64,000 nt of DNA from Thermodesulfobium narugense DSM 14796. Lineage in GTDB: Bacteria > Thermodesulfobiota > Thermodesulfobiia > Thermodesulfobiales > Thermodesulfobiaceae. A program made the translations under genes and the position numbers. Shown here one piece after another: positions 56,231-62,841 of the stretch. Within the stretch, counting starts at the first letter, position 1. Every line of letters starts with the position of its first letter. The stretch spans positions 833,501 through 897,500 of the forward strand of contig NC_015499.1 of NCBI RefSeq assembly GCF_000212395.1, read 5' to 3'. The notes beneath the pieces were generated by a model. It searched no databases and was not told the origin of the DNA. It worked only from the letters and a program-made list of their open reading frames with translations.

Positions 56231-57943
56231 GTGAATTATACTATAAGAATATGCGGTGAAGCAGGGCAAGGAATTCAAACCACTGGTGAGGGCTTTTCAA
56301 GGTTATTTAGCCTACTTGGTTATAATGTATTTTCATTTCAAGATTATGAGTCCAGAATAAGAGGTGGTCATAACTTTTATCAGATAACTTTTGGAACAGA
56401 TGAAATTTATGCGCCTAAAAAATTTTTAGATTTACTTCTTACCTTTGACAAAAAGGGTTTAGAATATAAGAACTTACTTCGAGATGATGGTATTGCTATT
56501 TATGACGCTGATTACCTCAAAAAAAGTGAACATGACGAAAAATTTATAAACTGTCCTTTTAGACAATTGTTGAATAACGCTAGACTAAAAAGTATATTTG
56601 AAAACGTCGTTTCTTTTGCATTGGTTGCAAATATACTTTCTATTGATAGAAAATACGTTTATAAAGTTATTTATGACATTTTTGCTGGTAAACCAGAGGA
56701 CATAATAGAACAAAATATTAAAGCAGTTGATATCGGATATGACTTTGATGTTAAAAGAAAAGTAAATTTACCAGCTTCAGACAGTGAAGAAAAAATCTTA
56801 TTAGATGGCGTAAAAGGAGTTGGCATAGGTGCTATAGGATCAGGTTGTAAATTTTATTCAGCATATCCTATGACACCTTCTACTGGTGTATTTCAATATA
56901 TTGGAACGCACGCTGAAAAGTTCAATATTGTAGTAGAACAAGCAGAAGATGAATTAAGCGCTATTAATATGGCAATTGGGGCATCCTTCGCGGGAGTTAG
57001 GGCTATGACTGGAACTTCGGGTGGAGGTTTTGCTCTTATGAATGAAGCTTTATCTCTTTCTGGAATGACAGAAACTCCAATAGTGATTTTGCTATCTCAA
57101 CGTCCTGGTCCAGCAACAGGATTTCCTACCAGGACTGAACAAGGAGAGTTGCTTTATGCTATTCATGCTGGGCATGGAGATTTTCCAAGAGTTGTTTTTG
57201 CTCCTGGTGATCCCCTTGAATGTGTATATCTTACAAACAAAGCTTTCGACATAGCAGAAAAATATCAAATTCCAGCCATTGTTTTAACAGATCAGCATCT
57301 TGTGGACTCTTTATACTCTTATAAAAAAGATCTCAAATTAAAGTTAAAAAACAAAGATTATAGACTAAGATCAGCAGATTTTGAAAACTATCAAGATTAT
57401 AAAAGACATAAATTTTTGGATTTTACTAAAAAAATCCCTCTTATCCCTTTAGCTGTTCCGGGAAATAGTAGGCAGTTGGTATTTACAGATAGTGATGAAC
57501 ATGATGAATATGGTCATATAACTGAAGATGGCGAAGTAAGAAAAAGGATGGTTGAGAGAAGATATTTTTGGAAAATTGAAAATATTAGAAATGAGATATC
57601 TTTGCCAAAAATTTATGGCAATAGTGACTCGAAAATTGTATTAATTGGATTTGGGTCAAATCTTGGGGTACTTAAAGAAATTGCAAATAATAAGGAAATA
57701 TCAGTATGTGCAATTCACTTTAGCGAGTTGTTTCCGCTTCCACTAAAAGAAAATTCTAATGAGTTTCTAAAGATAATATCAAGGTCTAATTTAACTATTT
57801 GTATCGAAAATAACGCTTCTGGACAGTTTCAAAAACTTGTTGAGTCAGAATATGGTTTCAAATTTTCACATAATTTAAGAAAATATGATGGTAGGCCTTT
57901 TAATTACGATGAAGTTCTGGAGGATATTTATGCTATCTTATAA
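56231..57943 (+). CDS. korA: 2-oxoacid:acceptor oxidoreductase, gamma-alpha fusion subunit
   Basis: 570 residues. Residues ~1-180 are the gamma domain (RICGEAGQGIQTTGEGFSRL, SRIRGGHN) and the rest the alpha subunit (GCKFYSAYPMTPSTGVFQYI, VRAMTGTSGGGFALMNEALS, SQRPGPATGFPTRTEQGEL), as in 2-oxoglutarate or related 2-oxoacid:ferredoxin oxidoreductases. They form acyl-CoA and CO2 from a 2-oxoacid, or run in reverse. Substrate specificity cannot be read. GTG start after GGGAGGG. No ferredoxin-type subunit is encoded nearby. The beta-subunit gene overlaps its end by 14 bases. Confidence 0.92.
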   Translation: MNYTIRICGEAGQGIQTTGEGFSRLFSLLGYNVFSFQDYESRIRGGHNFYQITFGTDEIYAPKKFLDLLLTFDKKGLEYKNLLRDDGIAIYDADYLKKSEHDEKFINCPFRQLLNNARLKSIFENVVSFALVANILSIDRKYVYKVIYDIFAGKPEDIIEQNIKAVDIGYDFDVKRKVNLPASDSEEKILLDGVKGVGIGAIGSGCKFYSAYPMTPSTGVFQYIGTHAEKFNIVVEQAEDELSAINMAIGASFAGVRAMTGTSGGGFALMNEALSLSGMTETPIVILLSQRPGPATGFPTRTEQGELLYAIHAGHGDFPRVVFAPGDPLECVYLTNKAFDIAEKYQIPAIVLTDQHLVDSLYSYKKDLKLKLKNKDYRLRSADFENYQDYKRHKFLDFTKKIPLIPLAVPGNSRQLVFTDSDEHDEYGHITEDGEVRKRMVERRYFWKIENIRNEISLPKIYGNSDSKIVLIGFGSNLGVLKEIANNKEISVCAIHFSELFPLPLKENSNEFLKIISRSNLTICIENNASGQFQKLVESEYGFKFSHNLRKYDGRPFNYDEVLEDIYAIL

Positions 57944-58772
57944 AGATTTTGACAACGGCACTGTTCCTGCTTGGTGTCCTGGTTGTGGGAATTTTGCTAT
58001 TCTAGATGCTTTTAAAAAGGCATTACTTGAGTTGGGAATTGAGCCATATGAAATTACGCTAGTTTCGGGAATAGGTCAATCAAGCAAATTGCCACACTAC
58101 TTAAAATGTAATGGCTTTAACGGTCTTCACGGCAGGTCTTTGCCTGTGGCTACCGGTATTAGTGTAGCCAATCATAAACAAAAAGTAATTATTTTTGGGG
58201 GAGACGGTGATACTTACGGTGAAGGTGGAAATCATCTCTTACATGCATTTAGGAGAAATCCAAATATAAAGCTTTTTGTTCATAACAATGCTGTTTATGG
58301 GCTAACAAAAGGGCAGGCTTCTCCTACTACAGAATTTGGAAGACGAACAAAGGCTCAACCTTTTGGTTCTCTTTCTGAGCCTTTAAACCCTATAGCGTTT
58401 GCTATTGCAATGAATTGTTCATTTGTGGCACGAAGTTTTTCTGGTAGTCCTGAACACCTTAAGAATATTATGAAAATGGCCATAAATCACGAAGGCTTTG
58501 CACTGGTAGATATTCTTCAAATATGTGTAAGCTTTAATAAAGTCAACAATTTTGAATGGTACAAAAAGAGAATTTATGAATTCAATGCTGATTACGATCT
58601 TTCTGACAAATTAAAAGCTTTTGAAAAATCTCAAGAATTTGACGAAAGAATCCCTTTAGGAGTGTTTTATTCCAACTCAAGACCAACCTTTGAAAAAAAT
58701 ATACCTGTAATAAAGGATAAAACCCTTGTTTCAATGCAAAATTTTCCTGATATAACTTCTCTAATATGTTAA
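57930..58772 (+). CDS. korB: 2-oxoacid:acceptor oxidoreductase, beta subunit
   Basis: 280 residues. CPGCGNFAILDAFKKAL has two of the Fe-S Cys, and FGGDGDTYGEGGNHLLHAFR is the thiamine-diphosphate motif with NNAVYGLTKGQASPTT following. It is the TPP- and Fe-S-binding partner of the preceding gene. Start: ATG at 57930, about seven bases after GGAGG and 14 bases inside korA; upstream in-frame ATGs lie before the SD. It overlaps the next radical SAM gene by 7 bases. Confidence 0.93.
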   Translation: MLSYKDFDNGTVPAWCPGCGNFAILDAFKKALLELGIEPYEITLVSGIGQSSKLPHYLKCNGFNGLHGRSLPVATGISVANHKQKVIIFGGDGDTYGEGGNHLLHAFRRNPNIKLFVHNNAVYGLTKGQASPTTEFGRRTKAQPFGSLSEPLNPIAFAIAMNCSFVARSFSGSPEHLKNIMKMAINHEGFALVDILQICVSFNKVNNFEWYKKRIYEFNADYDLSDKLKAFEKSQEFDERIPLGVFYSNSRPTFEKNIPVIKDKTLVSMQNFPDITSLIC

Positions 58773-59800
58773 AGTTTGACTTTTTTATTCAGGTTCATTT
58801 AACAGAGAGATGTAATCTTAGGTGCAGACATTGTTATCAAGAAAATCAAAAGACTGAATTAAAGTTTGACGATTGGGAGAATTTTTTCTCCTATAGTAAA
58901 GATTTAATAAGGGAGTGGGAGATAAAATATGATATTGAAATTCCATTTTTAATAAAACTAACTGGTGGTGAACCTTTTTTAAGAGAAGACTTTTTTGAAA
59001 TTGTAAAGTTTTTAAATGAAATTGATATTGAACCTTATATTTTAACAAATGGCACTCTCATTGACAAAAAAATGTTGTCTGATTTAAAAAAATTTAGATT
59101 TAATGGATTTCAGATAAGTATAGAAGGTAGCAAAGATACTCATGATAATATTAGAGGACAAGGCACATTTTATAAAGTTAAAGATGCAATAAAACTTTTG
59201 AAAGAAGAGAATTTTAGGGTGTTTTTGAAAACTACCTTATCTAGACTTAATTATAAGGATTTAAATGATTTGATAGATATTTCAAATAAGTGGGGGGTGG
59301 ATGGCCTAGGGTTTTCAAGATTGGTTCCCATTGGCAATGGCTCAAAGCTGCACGATTACATGCTTTCAAGTTCAGAGTTGAAAGATTTCTATTTGAACCT
59401 GAAAGCAAAAAATATAACATCATTTGAATTATTGATAGAAGATCCCCTTGGAGTTTGTGTTCTAGATGACGAATTAAAAGACAAAATTAATTCTATTGGC
59501 GGTTGTTCGGCAGGATTCTCAAGCATAACAGTTTTGTCCGATGGTGAGATAGTTCCCTGTAGGAGGATGCCAATTTCTTTGGGTAATATATTAAAAGATG
59601 ATTTGAGAAAGATTTGGTCTGAAAACGAGGTATTGCTCTCTTTAAGAGATAAAAACAAATATAAAAATGGATGTAGTAGTTGTCTTTATTGGAATGTATG
59701 TAGAGGCTGTAGGGCTATTGCTTATTCTTTGTCAAAAGAAAAACAAAGTTGGCTAAACAAAGATCCTCAGTGCTTTTTAACTGAGTCTTTGATAAAATGA
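58766..59800 (+). CDS. Radical SAM/SPASM protein, first of a tandem pair
   Basis: 344 residues. The [4Fe-4S]/SAM motif is CNLRCRHC in VHLTERCNLRCRHCYQEN, followed by LTGGEPFLRED. The C-terminal SPASM part has GGCSAGF, PCRRMPISLGN, CSSC, CRGCRA and DPQCF, enough Cys for two auxiliary clusters. Such proteins modify peptides (PqqE, sactisynthases) or other substrates such as tetrapyrroles. A 34-residue ORF follows 22 bases downstream and a second homologue after that. It overlaps korB by 7 bases, hence co-transcription. Confidence 0.93.
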   Translation: MLKFDFFIQVHLTERCNLRCRHCYQENQKTELKFDDWENFFSYSKDLIREWEIKYDIEIPFLIKLTGGEPFLREDFFEIVKFLNEIDIEPYILTNGTLIDKKMLSDLKKFRFNGFQISIEGSKDTHDNIRGQGTFYKVKDAIKLLKEENFRVFLKTTLSRLNYKDLNDLIDISNKWGVDGLGFSRLVPIGNGSKLHDYMLSSSELKDFYLNLKAKNITSFELLIEDPLGVCVLDDELKDKINSIGGCSAGFSSITVLSDGEIVPCRRMPISLGNILKDDLRKIWSENEVLLSLRDKNKYKNGCSSCLYWNVCRGCRAIAYSLSKEKQSWLNKDPQCFLTESLIK

Positions 59801-59822
59801 AAATTCAAAGGAGGTGAAAAGA

Positions 59823-59927
59823 ATGAAAAAAGAACTTGACAAAAAGACTCTTGAAAAAGAGACAGACTTCTGGAACAAGATCAAAGACAGTCTTAAAAAA
59901 GGTTCCGGAAAAGTTTGTCGCAAGTGA
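59823..59927 (+). CDS. 34-residue peptide, candidate radical SAM substrate
   Basis: An ATG preceded by a perfect AAAGGAGGTG encodes 34 residues: a charged helical part (KKELDKKTLEKETDFWNKIK) and the tail DSLKKGSGKVCRK. It has one Trp, one Cys near the C-terminus and a Gly-Ser-Gly segment. It lies between two radical SAM/SPASM genes and its stop TGA overlaps the GTG of the second one (GTGA). Precursors of ribosomally made modified peptides are often found in this way. A purely structural or regulatory role is also possible. Confidence 0.65.
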   Translation: MKKELDKKTLEKETDFWNKIKDSLKKGSGKVCRK

Positions 59928-60985
59928 AAGAGCTGATAGAAGATCCTTCAGTTGTCAGTTTGACAACTAATAAGAGTGTACCTTTTACAGTTCAAATCCA
60001 CATTACTGAAAGATGCAATTTGAACTGCAGACACTGTTATCAGGAAAATGAAATAACAGAAGAAATGAGTCTTGAAGAAATTAAAGACTATATACAAGAA
60101 ATACTTGAAGTAGTTTACGATTGGGCAGAGAAGTCGGAAATTGCTTTTCTGCCCAATATAAATTTATTGGGGGGAGAAGTTTTTTTAAGAAATGATTGGG
60201 AAGAGATATTAAATTTTTTATCCAGAGAAAATATAGAGTACTATATATTAACCAATGCAACTCTGATAGACGAGTTTGTTGCAAAAAAACTTAAAAATTT
60301 TCAGGTATCTGGAGTACAGGTTAGTCTGGATGGTCCTGAAAAAATTCATGATTACATTAGGGGTCAGGATTCATTTAAAAAAGCTGTTGCCGGTATTCAA
60401 AATCTTATAAAAAATGATATTCACGTCACTCTAAATGCTACAATATCAAAAATTAATTATGAATTTTTTCAAGATCTTATTCAGGTTGCAAAAGATTTAC
60501 ATGTACATGGACTGGTATTTTCAAGACTAGTCCCTACTGGGCATTCACAAAACATTAAAGAGTTGATACTTACAAAATATGAGTTAAAATCGCTTTATGA
60601 TCTTGTTAAAGAGAATAACGAAAATTCAGATTTTAAGATAAACACTGGCGATCCAATTGCTTCTTTGTATATTGATTGCAATACTTCTTACGGTTTTGGT
60701 GGATGTGCTGCGGGATTTGCTGGAATAACTATTTTAAGCAATGCAACTTTGGTTCCCTGTAGGAGGCTAAAAATTTCTTTAGGCAATTTGAGAAGAGATT
60801 CTTTTAGAGAAATATGGTCAAATTCTGAAGTATTAAACAATCTCAGAATTCAAGAAAATTATTTTGGAAAGTGCAGGAAGTGTTCTAAATTTATGAGGTG
60901 TAGAGGTTGTAGAGCAATTTGTTTTGCTCTATCTTCCAGAGAAGAGTATAAATATCTAGATGAAGACCCTCAGTGTATTTTTTGA
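59924..60985 (+). CDS. Radical SAM/SPASM protein, second of a tandem pair
   Basis: 353 residues. IHITERCNLNCRHCYQENE, then LLGGEVFLRNDW (Val in place of the common Pro), GGCAAGF, PCRRLKISLGN, CRKC, CRGCRA and DPQCIF. It is clearly paralogous with the first protein along its whole length. Start: GTG at 59924 overlaps the peptide stop (GTGA); TTG at 59915 is an alternative. Convergent with the small membrane protein gene at 60987, stop to stop. It probably acts on the same or a related substrate as its partner. Confidence 0.92.
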   Translation: MKELIEDPSVVSLTTNKSVPFTVQIHITERCNLNCRHCYQENEITEEMSLEEIKDYIQEILEVVYDWAEKSEIAFLPNINLLGGEVFLRNDWEEILNFLSRENIEYYILTNATLIDEFVAKKLKNFQVSGVQVSLDGPEKIHDYIRGQDSFKKAVAGIQNLIKNDIHVTLNATISKINYEFFQDLIQVAKDLHVHGLVFSRLVPTGHSQNIKELILTKYELKSLYDLVKENNENSDFKINTGDPIASLYIDCNTSYGFGGCAAGFAGITILSNATLVPCRRLKISLGNLRRDSFREIWSNSEVLNNLRIQENYFGKCRKCSKFMRCRGCRAICFALSSREEYKYLDEDPQCIF

Positions 60986-60986
60986 T

Positions 60987-61151
60987 TTAGAATTTTTCAA
61001 AAATATTTGGTTTAAAAAGTGCTACATAAATAAAGAAAATTGAGAACATAGTGCTTATGATTCTGACATGTAAATTGAAAGGAAATACAAAAACTACTAA
61101 TAATAAGATTGTTACTGCAGCTAACATTATGAATCTTATTAATTTTGGCAA
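60987..61151 (-). CDS. 54-residue membrane protein
   Basis: The TTG start lies seven bases after AAAGGAG. The product has two hydrophobic segments (IMLAAVTILLLVVFVFPF and STMFSIFFIYVALF) joined by a short loop with NLHVR, and ends KPNIFEKF. It shares its stop region with the second radical SAM gene, from which it is separated by one base. Function unknown; it may be linked to the cassette by position only. Confidence 0.65.
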   Translation of the reverse strand: MPKLIRFIMLAAVTILLLVVFVFPFNLHVRIISTMFSIFFIYVALFKPNIFEKF

Positions 61152-61251: not shown

Positions 61252-62841
61252 ATGAGTATTATTGATGAAAAAATTAAAAGTTCTTTAAAAGAGAATTTTT
61301 TGATACTTAAAGATAAAGTAAATATAAAGGTTGTACTTCCCGAAGAAAAAGATCAATTCTACGAATACACTAAAGAAATATTTGAGGTTTTGCCAGAAGT
61401 TTCAGATAAGATTTCGGTTCAATTTATATCAAAAAGTGACGTACTCTCAAAGCTTATTGATGAAGAGATAAAGTGCCCAATAGTTATATTTGACGACGAA
61501 AAGCTTGATGCAATATTCGTTGGAACGCCTATTGGTGAAGAGGCCCACACATTGGTAAACGCTATTTTACTTATTTCTGGAGCAAAACAATTTCTAAATG
61601 ATAAAGATTTATCTATAATTAGCGACGTGAAAAAAGAAACAGTTGTAGAAGTTTATGTGAGCCCTACGTGTCCCTATTGTCCTCAACAGGCTATTATGGC
61701 TATAAATGCTAGTATGATTAATAGAAACATCAAGACAAAAATTATTGAAATTTTTGAAAATAAAGAGATTGCTCAAAAAAAATCTATTAGGTCAGTTCCT
61801 GTTACTTATGTAGATAATGAGCAGGTAGCAGTAGGTCTTCAATCAAATGAAGAATTTGTATTGTCACTAATTGGTAAAGAAGTGCAGAAATTGCTCCATA
61901 ATGAAAAAGATAAGTTAAAAGAGTTTGACCTAACAATAGTAGGAGCTGGTCCTGCAGGATTATCAGCTGCAATATACGCGAGAAGATCAGGACTTTCAGT
62001 GGGTATTTTTGAGGCTGAAATGGTTGGAGGGCAGGTACTTACTACTCCTCAGGTTGAAAACTATCCTGGCTTTATTAGTATTTCGGGAAAATCTTTGGTT
62101 GATATTTTAACCCAGCATGTACTCAATTATGTAAGTATAAGTATTGGAGAAGAAGTAAAAAAGATAAATAGAGTTGAAGATTATTTTAAGGTAATCACAT
62201 CTGATGATTCGTATAGATCTAAAGCTGTTCTTTTGGCAACTGGGGCTTCTAAGAGAAAGTTAAAAGTTCCTGGTGAAGCCTCTTTTTATGGCAAAGGAGT
62301 AAGTTACTGCGCGCTATGTGATGGATATTTTTATAAAGGCAAGGAGGTATTTATCGTAGGTGGTGGAAACACGGCTTTAACTGATGCAATATATCTTAAA
62401 AACGTTGGTGCTGATGTAACGCTTATTCACAGGAGAGATGCTCTAAGAGCTGAAAAATACCTTCAAGATTCATTTTTCAAACTTGGAATTGAGGTAATGT
62501 GGAATAGTGAAGTAAAAGAAATTTTAGGGAAAGAGTCAGTTGAGTTTATTAAAATTGTTAATAACCTTACAGGAGAAGAACAAACTCAAGCTCTTGATGG
62601 GCTCTTTATAGCAATTGGATACCTACCAAACAATTCGCTTGCAAAAGACTTAGGGGTTGAGCTTGATGAAGAGGGATATATAAAAGTTGATAAGAACATG
62701 AGAACCAACGTTCACAGAGTATATGCAGCTGGCGATATAGTAGGAGGTGAAAAGCAAATTGTAGTAGCAGTCTCAAGGGGAGCTATAGCTGCTACATCTG
62801 CATTTGAGGATATATTGTCGCCTTATTGGGTTAAAAAATAA
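61252..62841 (+). CDS. AhpF-like flavoprotein with N-terminal double thioredoxin fold
   Basis: 529 residues. Residues ~1-215 form two thioredoxin folds, the first without an active site and the second with CPYC (SPTCPYCPQQ). From ~228 on follows a thioredoxin-reductase module: VGAGPAGLSAAIYARRSG binds FAD, SYCALCDGYFY holds the redox Cys pair, VGGGNTALTDA binds NAD(P)H and YAAGDIVGG ends it. This is the AhpF layout, passing electrons from NADH to the N-terminal domain and then a peroxiredoxin; no AhpC gene is next to it. Start ATG at 61252 after GGAGGGAG. Confidence 0.92.
   Translation: MSIIDEKIKSSLKENFLILKDKVNIKVVLPEEKDQFYEYTKEIFEVLPEVSDKISVQFISKSDVLSKLIDEEIKCPIVIFDDEKLDAIFVGTPIGEEAHTLVNAILLISGAKQFLNDKDLSIISDVKKETVVEVYVSPTCPYCPQQAIMAINASMINRNIKTKIIEIFENKEIAQKKSIRSVPVTYVDNEQVAVGLQSNEEFVLSLIGKEVQKLLHNEKDKLKEFDLTIVGAGPAGLSAAIYARRSGLSVGIFEAEMVGGQVLTTPQVENYPGFISISGKSLVDILTQHVLNYVSISIGEEVKKINRVEDYFKVITSDDSYRSKAVLLATGASKRKLKVPGEASFYGKGVSYCALCDGYFYKGKEVFIVGGGNTALTDAIYLKNVGADVTLIHRRDALRAEKYLQDSFFKLGIEVMWNSEVKEILGKESVEFIKIVNNLTGEEQTQALDGLFIAIGYLPNNSLAKDLGVELDEEGYIKVDKNMRTNVHRVYAAGDIVGGEKQIVVAVSRGAIAATSAFEDILSPYWVKK

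Follow-up and report, generated by a model that had tools for sequence, protein, structure and literature searches.

Genetic organization of the locus

The DNA analyzed here is a window of 64 kb (NC_015499.1, positions 833,501 to 897,500) from the genome of Thermodesulfobium narugense DSM 14796, which consists of a single contig of 1,898,865 bases. A packed run of genes in the same direction (56231–60985 of the window) encodes the two parts of a 2-oxoacid:acceptor oxidoreductase (korA and korB), a radical S-adenosylmethionine (SAM) enzyme with a SPASM domain (rSAM1), a peptide of 34 amino acids, and a further radical SAM/SPASM enzyme (rSAM2). As judged from sequence, the cassette formed by the peptide gene and the two enzyme genes is very probably a precursor–maturase system of the radical SAM/SPASM peptide-modification kind, and one that is unnamed in the family libraries searched.

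The junctions between the genes are tight. korA and korB overlap by 14 bases, and the 7-base overlap of korB with rSAM1 reported in the first-pass annotation is confirmed by the coordinates (58772 versus 58766) and kept in three of the four genomes of the genus. In the fourth (G003, locus L039), a longer T run shifts the C-terminal frame of rSAM1 beyond the last cluster cysteine, and the overlap is lost. The sole gap in the run, 22 bases, separates the rSAM1 stop from the peptide ATG (59823), with AAAGGAGGTGAAAAGAATG standing 5' of this ATG. The TGA of the peptide gene shares four bases (GTGA) with the GTG start of rSAM2, for which an alternative in-frame TTG start is found at 59915. The perfect Shine-Dalgarno (SD) sequence, the 22-base spacing and the stop–start overlap had all been described earlier and were verified on the sequence.

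The gene order ruvC-ruvA-ruvB-exonuclease-korA-korB-rSAM1-peptide-rSAM2, with korA upstream of rSAM1, is kept in all four genus genomes. A promoter and terminator scan gave a result no better than shuffles, and an Rfam scan of the region from 55 to 64 kb gave no result. The features are collected in Table 1.

Table 1. Features of the kor–radical SAM run, in window coordinates.
Feature	Position	Strand	Evidence and remarks
korA, 2-oxoacid:acceptor oxidoreductase, fused gamma-alpha subunit	56231–57943	+	TIGR03710 at 588 bits (cut-off 483)
korB, 2-oxoacid:acceptor oxidoreductase, beta subunit	57930–58772	+	TIGR02177 at 350 bits (cut-off 262)
rSAM1, radical SAM/SPASM enzyme, 344 amino acids	58766–59800	+	PF04055 and PF13186 over cut-off
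Shine-Dalgarno sequence of the peptide gene, AAGGAGG	59808–59814	+	longer match AAAGGAGGTGA from 59807
Putative precursor peptide gene, 34 amino acids, MKKELDKKTLEKETDFWNKIKDSLKKGSGKVCRK	59823–59927	+	conservation, codon analysis, G288 homologue, AF2 model
rSAM2, radical SAM/SPASM enzyme, 353 amino acids	59924–60985	+	Pfam over cut-off; AF2 model

The small open reading frame is a conserved gene

The peptide contains 11 Lys, one Trp, a GSG segment and a Cys third from its end, in agreement with the first description of it as Lys-rich, and has a charge of +6. Its SD–start context is matched once in the window and not at all in 100 shuffles. The four genus genomes share both the SD match and the GTGA overlap, and their peptide genes differ by 1–15 codons, at most two of which alter an amino acid. 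Between the window species and the other members of the genus there are 10–13 silent codon changes and two amino-acid changes in the peptide. When the same 14 substitutions were placed at random, equally few amino-acid changes were obtained in 5 of 20,000 trials. These counts indicate that the amino-acid sequence of the peptide, and not the frame alone, is under selection. A chance open reading frame was ruled out by the silent-site bias, the rarity of the SD–start context against shuffles, and the random-substitution trials.

Searches with the peptide gave no match in NCBIfam, Pfam or PHROGs, no result in plasmid or phage records, and no match in the PDB. By its sequence, the peptide falls outside every family of the libraries searched; at the outset, likewise, no known family could be matched to the precursor.

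A homologous peptide and enzyme in a second lineage

Two distant relatives were combined with rSAM1 and rSAM2 in a profile, which was scanned over 386 genomes, and the flanks of the best matches were inspected. A homologous arrangement was found in G288, a high-GC genome of a phylum other than that of the window genome, with only two genomes of that phylum in the set. The G288 peptide (MKKSLTPAARELEAAHWTALKKALTEKTVKVCRK; locus L060, 1257–1361) has its own perfect SD and lies directly upstream of a single radical SAM gene, which starts 121 bases after the peptide with an SD of its own and no overlap. The two peptides are of equal length and identical at 14 of 34 positions; W17, K21, L24 and the terminal KVCRK are unchanged. 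Within the 19-kb locus, the tblastn match has an E value of 3e-5. The first-pass annotation had set in advance the conservation of the small frame beside homologous radical SAM genes as the test of its proposal, and such conservation is observed in the four genus genomes and in G288, where the KVCRK end is identical. Its suggestion of one peptide served by two non-identical maturases is supported for the genus, in which the two enzymes are 43% identical, but does not extend to the single enzyme of G288.

Over a broad set of about 372 genomes, a peptide profile that includes the G288 sequence gave strong matches in G288 and the four genus members and nowhere else, and the same strong matches were obtained on rerunning it over a largely overlapping set. 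Weak matches in G217 and G278 (E 0.001–0.006) were rejected, as they lie inside long frames and end before KVCRK. The profile had no result for the G066 and G027 phyla, whose samples are small and uninformative. Used as a single query against the genome contigs, rSAM2 found only one contig of the same genus, and a radical SAM profile gave no result in viral contigs. On the evidence of these searches, the cassette is rare or under-sampled.

The two radical SAM/SPASM enzymes

Both enzymes contain radical SAM and SPASM domains over the Pfam cut-offs and no further Pfam domain. In rSAM1, the CxxxCxxC motif is formed by Cys16, Cys20 and Cys23, and the SPASM cysteines are residues 247, 265, 303, 306, 312, 315 and 336, plus Cys231. 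The SPASM cysteines of rSAM2 are residues 261, 279, 317, 320, 326, 329 and 351, plus Cys252. The auxiliary-cluster spacing C-x17-C-x37-C-x2-C-x5-C-x2-C-x20-C is complete, and the cysteine pattern is present in rSAM1, rSAM2 and the G288 enzyme. AhbD, which has been described with a full SPASM motif, displays the same pattern (PMC10452713). The additional upstream Cys is located at DPxxxC in rSAM1 (C231) and in the G288 enzyme (C236), and 3–4 residues later in rSAM2 of all four species (C252, DPIASLYIDC); the distant relatives in G004, G014 and G301 are without it. When the first auxiliary cluster is coordinated by three Cys, a site can be free for the substrate, as happens in ranthipeptide enzymes; coordination by four Cys leaves no such site (PMC10452713). 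In view of the shifted upstream Cys, rSAM1 and rSAM2 may therefore differ in chemistry.

Among the best 25 of the 81–82 NCBIfam models matching each enzyme, none was over its cut-off. The top models for rSAM1 within these 25, ACGX, AhbD, SbtM and NirJ2, scored about 145–171 bits against cut-offs of 350–500. Because these scores are far below the cut-offs and the peptide is unmatched, the cassette was assigned to no curated family.

A tree of 34 proteins places rSAM1, rSAM2 and the G288 enzyme in one group (support 81/92), separate from AhbC/AhbD and from a clade with PqqD-like neighbours; the program itself cautions that the G288 sequence is long and compositionally unusual. The sisterhood of rSAM1 and rSAM2 is weak (82/75). 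The AlphaFold2 (AF2) model of rSAM2 (predicted local distance difference test, pLDDT, 80) has SkfB, anSME, SuiB and CteB as its nearest folds, and the nearest solved folds and sequences of the window enzymes include peptide and protein maturases.

Small peptides also accompany more distant enzymes. In G004 (L032, 3036–4484), a relative of rSAM1 and rSAM2 that is under every family cut-off shown occurs with a PqqD-like protein and a Cys-containing peptide of 46 amino acids ending SSGKRIVCRQCSGCHGCR. G301 (L058) has a radical SAM enzyme, a PqqD-like protein and a 34-residue peptide ending KDSCYA. In G312 (L105), two paralogous small peptides with GCGCGC repeat ends (8549 and 8264, minus strand) lie immediately ahead of a SPASM radical SAM gene (8072, minus strand); the one peptide scanned had no NCBIfam match, and the arrangement looks like another cassette for a ribosomally synthesized and post-translationally modified peptide (RiPP). 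Peptide substrates thus look common among relatives in the wider group, which supports a peptide substrate for the window enzymes.

Comparison with known systems

The locus displays two features of RiPP-type cassettes, namely the CxxxCxxC and SPASM cysteines of the enzymes and a candidate precursor beside the enzyme in the four genus genomes and G288. It resembles mycofactocin (MftA/MftB/MftC, TIGR03969/TIGR03962) in its small precursor with a highly conserved C-terminal end and adjoining SPASM enzyme. The mycofactocin precursor has seven invariant residues within its last eight, and the product has been proposed as an electron-carrier cofactor (PMC3023750). By analogy, and in line with its AF2 model, we read the window peptide as a leader helix followed by a C-terminal core. 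rSAM2, however, scores 126 bits to MftC against a cut-off of 265 and is not a member of that family; the window cassette has no MftB-like gene, carries KVCRK instead of the mycofactocin motif, and includes two radical SAM enzymes.

The pyrroloquinoline quinone (PQQ) system (PqqA/PqqD/PqqE) likewise combines a short precursor with a SPASM enzyme, and the fold of the window enzyme is similar to that of PqqE. Scores to the PqqE model are 76–89 bits against a cut-off of 381, at most 81 for the window enzymes, which lie outside this family. In addition, the PQQ precursor has its Glu and Tyr cross-linked, whereas the window peptide has no Tyr and the cassette no PqqD. The ACGX radical SAM enzymes (TIGR04340) and the SbtM thio(seleno)oxazole maturase (TIGR04082) are among the best matches of rSAM1 (171 and 157 bits), and relatives such as that of G004 have Cys-rich precursors. 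Their cut-offs of 400 and 350 are nevertheless far off; the window enzymes, with 171 and 154 bits against 400, fall outside the ACGX family, and the window peptide has a single Cys and no ACGX repeats. A literature search on ACGX found nothing.

AhbC, AhbD and NirJ share the SPASM spacing C-x2-C-x5-C-x2-C and give similar scores, but the window enzymes reach at most 163 bits against cut-offs of at least 500, have no heme gene context, and are not members of these families. Thuricin CD (TrnC/TrnD) provides a case of two non-identical radical SAM enzymes for the precursors of one system, which form a tight complex and play unequal parts in it (PMC12093266). By contrast with that two-component antibiotic and its thioether cross-links, a single near-invariant peptide with one Cys is found here, with no adjoining export genes.

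Proposed maturation and alternative explanations

The best overall explanation is that the peptide is a ribosomal precursor matured by the two SPASM enzymes, and we regard it as likely. That the peptide is a substrate of the radical SAM enzymes is highly likely from the arrangement and conservation of the genes; the KVCRK tail is the probable, if less secure, site of modification; and a cofactor-like role inside the cell is suggested only tentatively. The AF2 model of the peptide shows a helix at residues 7–27 followed by the loose tail GSGKVCRK (pLDDT 77). The helix is amphipathic in the window species, with a moment exceeded in 1% of shuffles; at 13%, the G288 helix is less clearly of this kind.

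In the proposed scheme, the helix (approximately residues 7–27, with W17, I20 and L24) would be read by the maturases as a leader, and the exposed C-terminal tail GSG-KVCRK would be the part modified. The synthesis of rSAM2 would be translationally coupled to that of the peptide, and rSAM1 and rSAM2, both of SPASM type, would each cleave SAM at the N-terminal [4Fe-4S] cluster and then abstract a hydrogen from a tail residue, the leftover electron going to the two auxiliary clusters. C32 would most likely take part in the outcome, whether a cross-link, such as a thioether, or an oxidation; with one invariant Cys, a single thioether is possible. A link between W17 and K21 (W-xxx-K, both invariant) is also possible, the streptide cross-link being the reverse, K-xxx-W. 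Because W17 lies within the predicted helix, a part in leader recognition is as likely for it as this cross-link. The two enzymes may act sequentially or as a pair, and one would suffice in G288. Most likely, the product would remain intracellular and serve as a peptide cofactor with thiol or redox activity, not as a secreted antibiotic.

Several observations weigh against maturation of the peptide by these enzymes. Full-family hidden Markov models of heme enzymes (AhbD, NirJ2) and of peptide maturases (ACGX, SbtM) score about equally, each below its cut-off, and the PDB lists for the rSAM2 model contain no AhbD structure, so that the likeness in fold does not discriminate against the AhbD class. 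No gene for PqqD or a RiPP recognition element (RRE) adjoins the window cassette, and the Pfam scan revealed no RRE fused into rSAM1 or rSAM2. The RRE/PqqD element is common but not universal, and some maturases need none. The only PqqD-like gene of the window genome lies directly after that of an OPT-family oligopeptide transporter (L114, 6732–7085 and 7089–9005, respectively, both on the minus strand), with no radical SAM gene nearby; a PqqD-like gene is present in all four genus genomes, and in G288 PqqD goes with a different radical SAM pair. The peptide family is, moreover, known from two lineages, and the G288 peptide has an E value of 0.033 genome-wide from a single query; given this modest value, it is the position and the identical KVCRK end that carry the argument beyond the score.

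Alternatively, the substrate of the enzymes could be a different one, either a tetrapyrrole or a residue within KorAB, with the small protein as an accessory chaperone or regulatory subunit like the PqqD carrier. We consider this improbable. The direct attachment of korAB in the genus, the partly helical peptide, and the NCBIfam scores to AhbD and NirJ2, which match those to the peptide maturases, are compatible with it. However, AhbC, HemB and AhbD are encoded elsewhere in the same genome (AhbC/AhbD adjoining HemB) and the window enzymes branch apart in a separate clade, which weakens the tetrapyrrole substrate that had been allowed for homologues at the outset; an identity of rSAM1 and rSAM2 as tetrapyrrole enzymes was rejected on the separate AhbC/AhbD genes and the tree position. 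Peptide and enzyme also stand together in G288 though korAB is 18–20 kb off, and an invariant KVCRK on a short loose tail fits a substrate, not an adaptor fold.

Less probable still, the two radical SAM enzymes could make a secreted ribosomal antimicrobial, namely a bacteriocin of the sactipeptide or ranthipeptide-like type. The small size and positive charge of the peptide would suit this, and two SPASM enzymes per precursor have precedents in thuricin CD (PMC12093266) and ruminococcin C (PMC8188230). Nevertheless, the peptide has a single Cys, is near-invariant in the genus and identical at its end in another phylum, unlike diversifying bacteriocins, and no transporter, protease or immunity gene stands beside the cassette in any locus inspected; the near-invariance and the lack of such genes argue for an intracellular product. 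It is very improbable that the small frame is a translation-coupling or leader frame for rSAM2 with a functionless product: the GTGA overlap kept in the genus would suit such a device, but selection acts on the amino-acid sequence beyond the frame, and G288 retains the peptide despite the distance and independent SD of its enzyme gene.

Possible link to 2-oxoacid metabolism

korAB is packed translationally against rSAM1, and this direct attachment is found in one genus only. The peptide gene of G288 is preceded by a dihydrolipoyl-dehydrogenase-like gene (PRK06292.2-5, 487 bits, cut-off 592), and the only full-length korA-type match of the genome, together with korB, lies 18–20 kb away on the opposite strand of the same 41.5-kb contig, about 1% of the 3.9-Mb genome. 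This comparison was made post hoc on two lineages, which are too few, so the link of the cassette to 2-oxoacid metabolism is suggestive only and serves as a lead. That the KVCRK peptide gives rise to an undescribed peptide-derived cofactor, of redox or thiol type, for use by 2-oxoacid oxidoreductases is unlikely, though conceivable.

Downstream of the cassette, a hydrophobic open reading frame of 54 amino acids on the minus strand (60987–61151), convergent with rSAM2 and sharing about 80% identity with its counterparts in two congeneric species, is probably a real small membrane protein. The gene at 61252–62841 (plus strand), which adjoins the cassette and is kept in the genus, encodes a flavoprotein of thioredoxin-reductase/AhpF-like type whose N-terminal domain is glutaredoxin-like; as the minus-strand frame converges on rSAM2, this gene is probably outside the cassette operon. 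A flavoprotein disulfide reductase is found near the peptide in both lineages, thioredoxin-reductase/AhpF-like in the genus and lipoamide-dehydrogenase-like in G288.

If the peptide is modified, a deep-branching hot-spring sulfate reducer would harbour a precursor family not yet catalogued, served by a SPASM enzyme clade of its own. The system is small, with three genes and one conserved end of five residues, and is therefore directly testable. Few cofactors derive from peptides; those linked to SPASM enzymes and considered here are PQQ and mycofactocin. A new peptide cofactor tied to 2-oxoacid oxidation, if true, would be notable.

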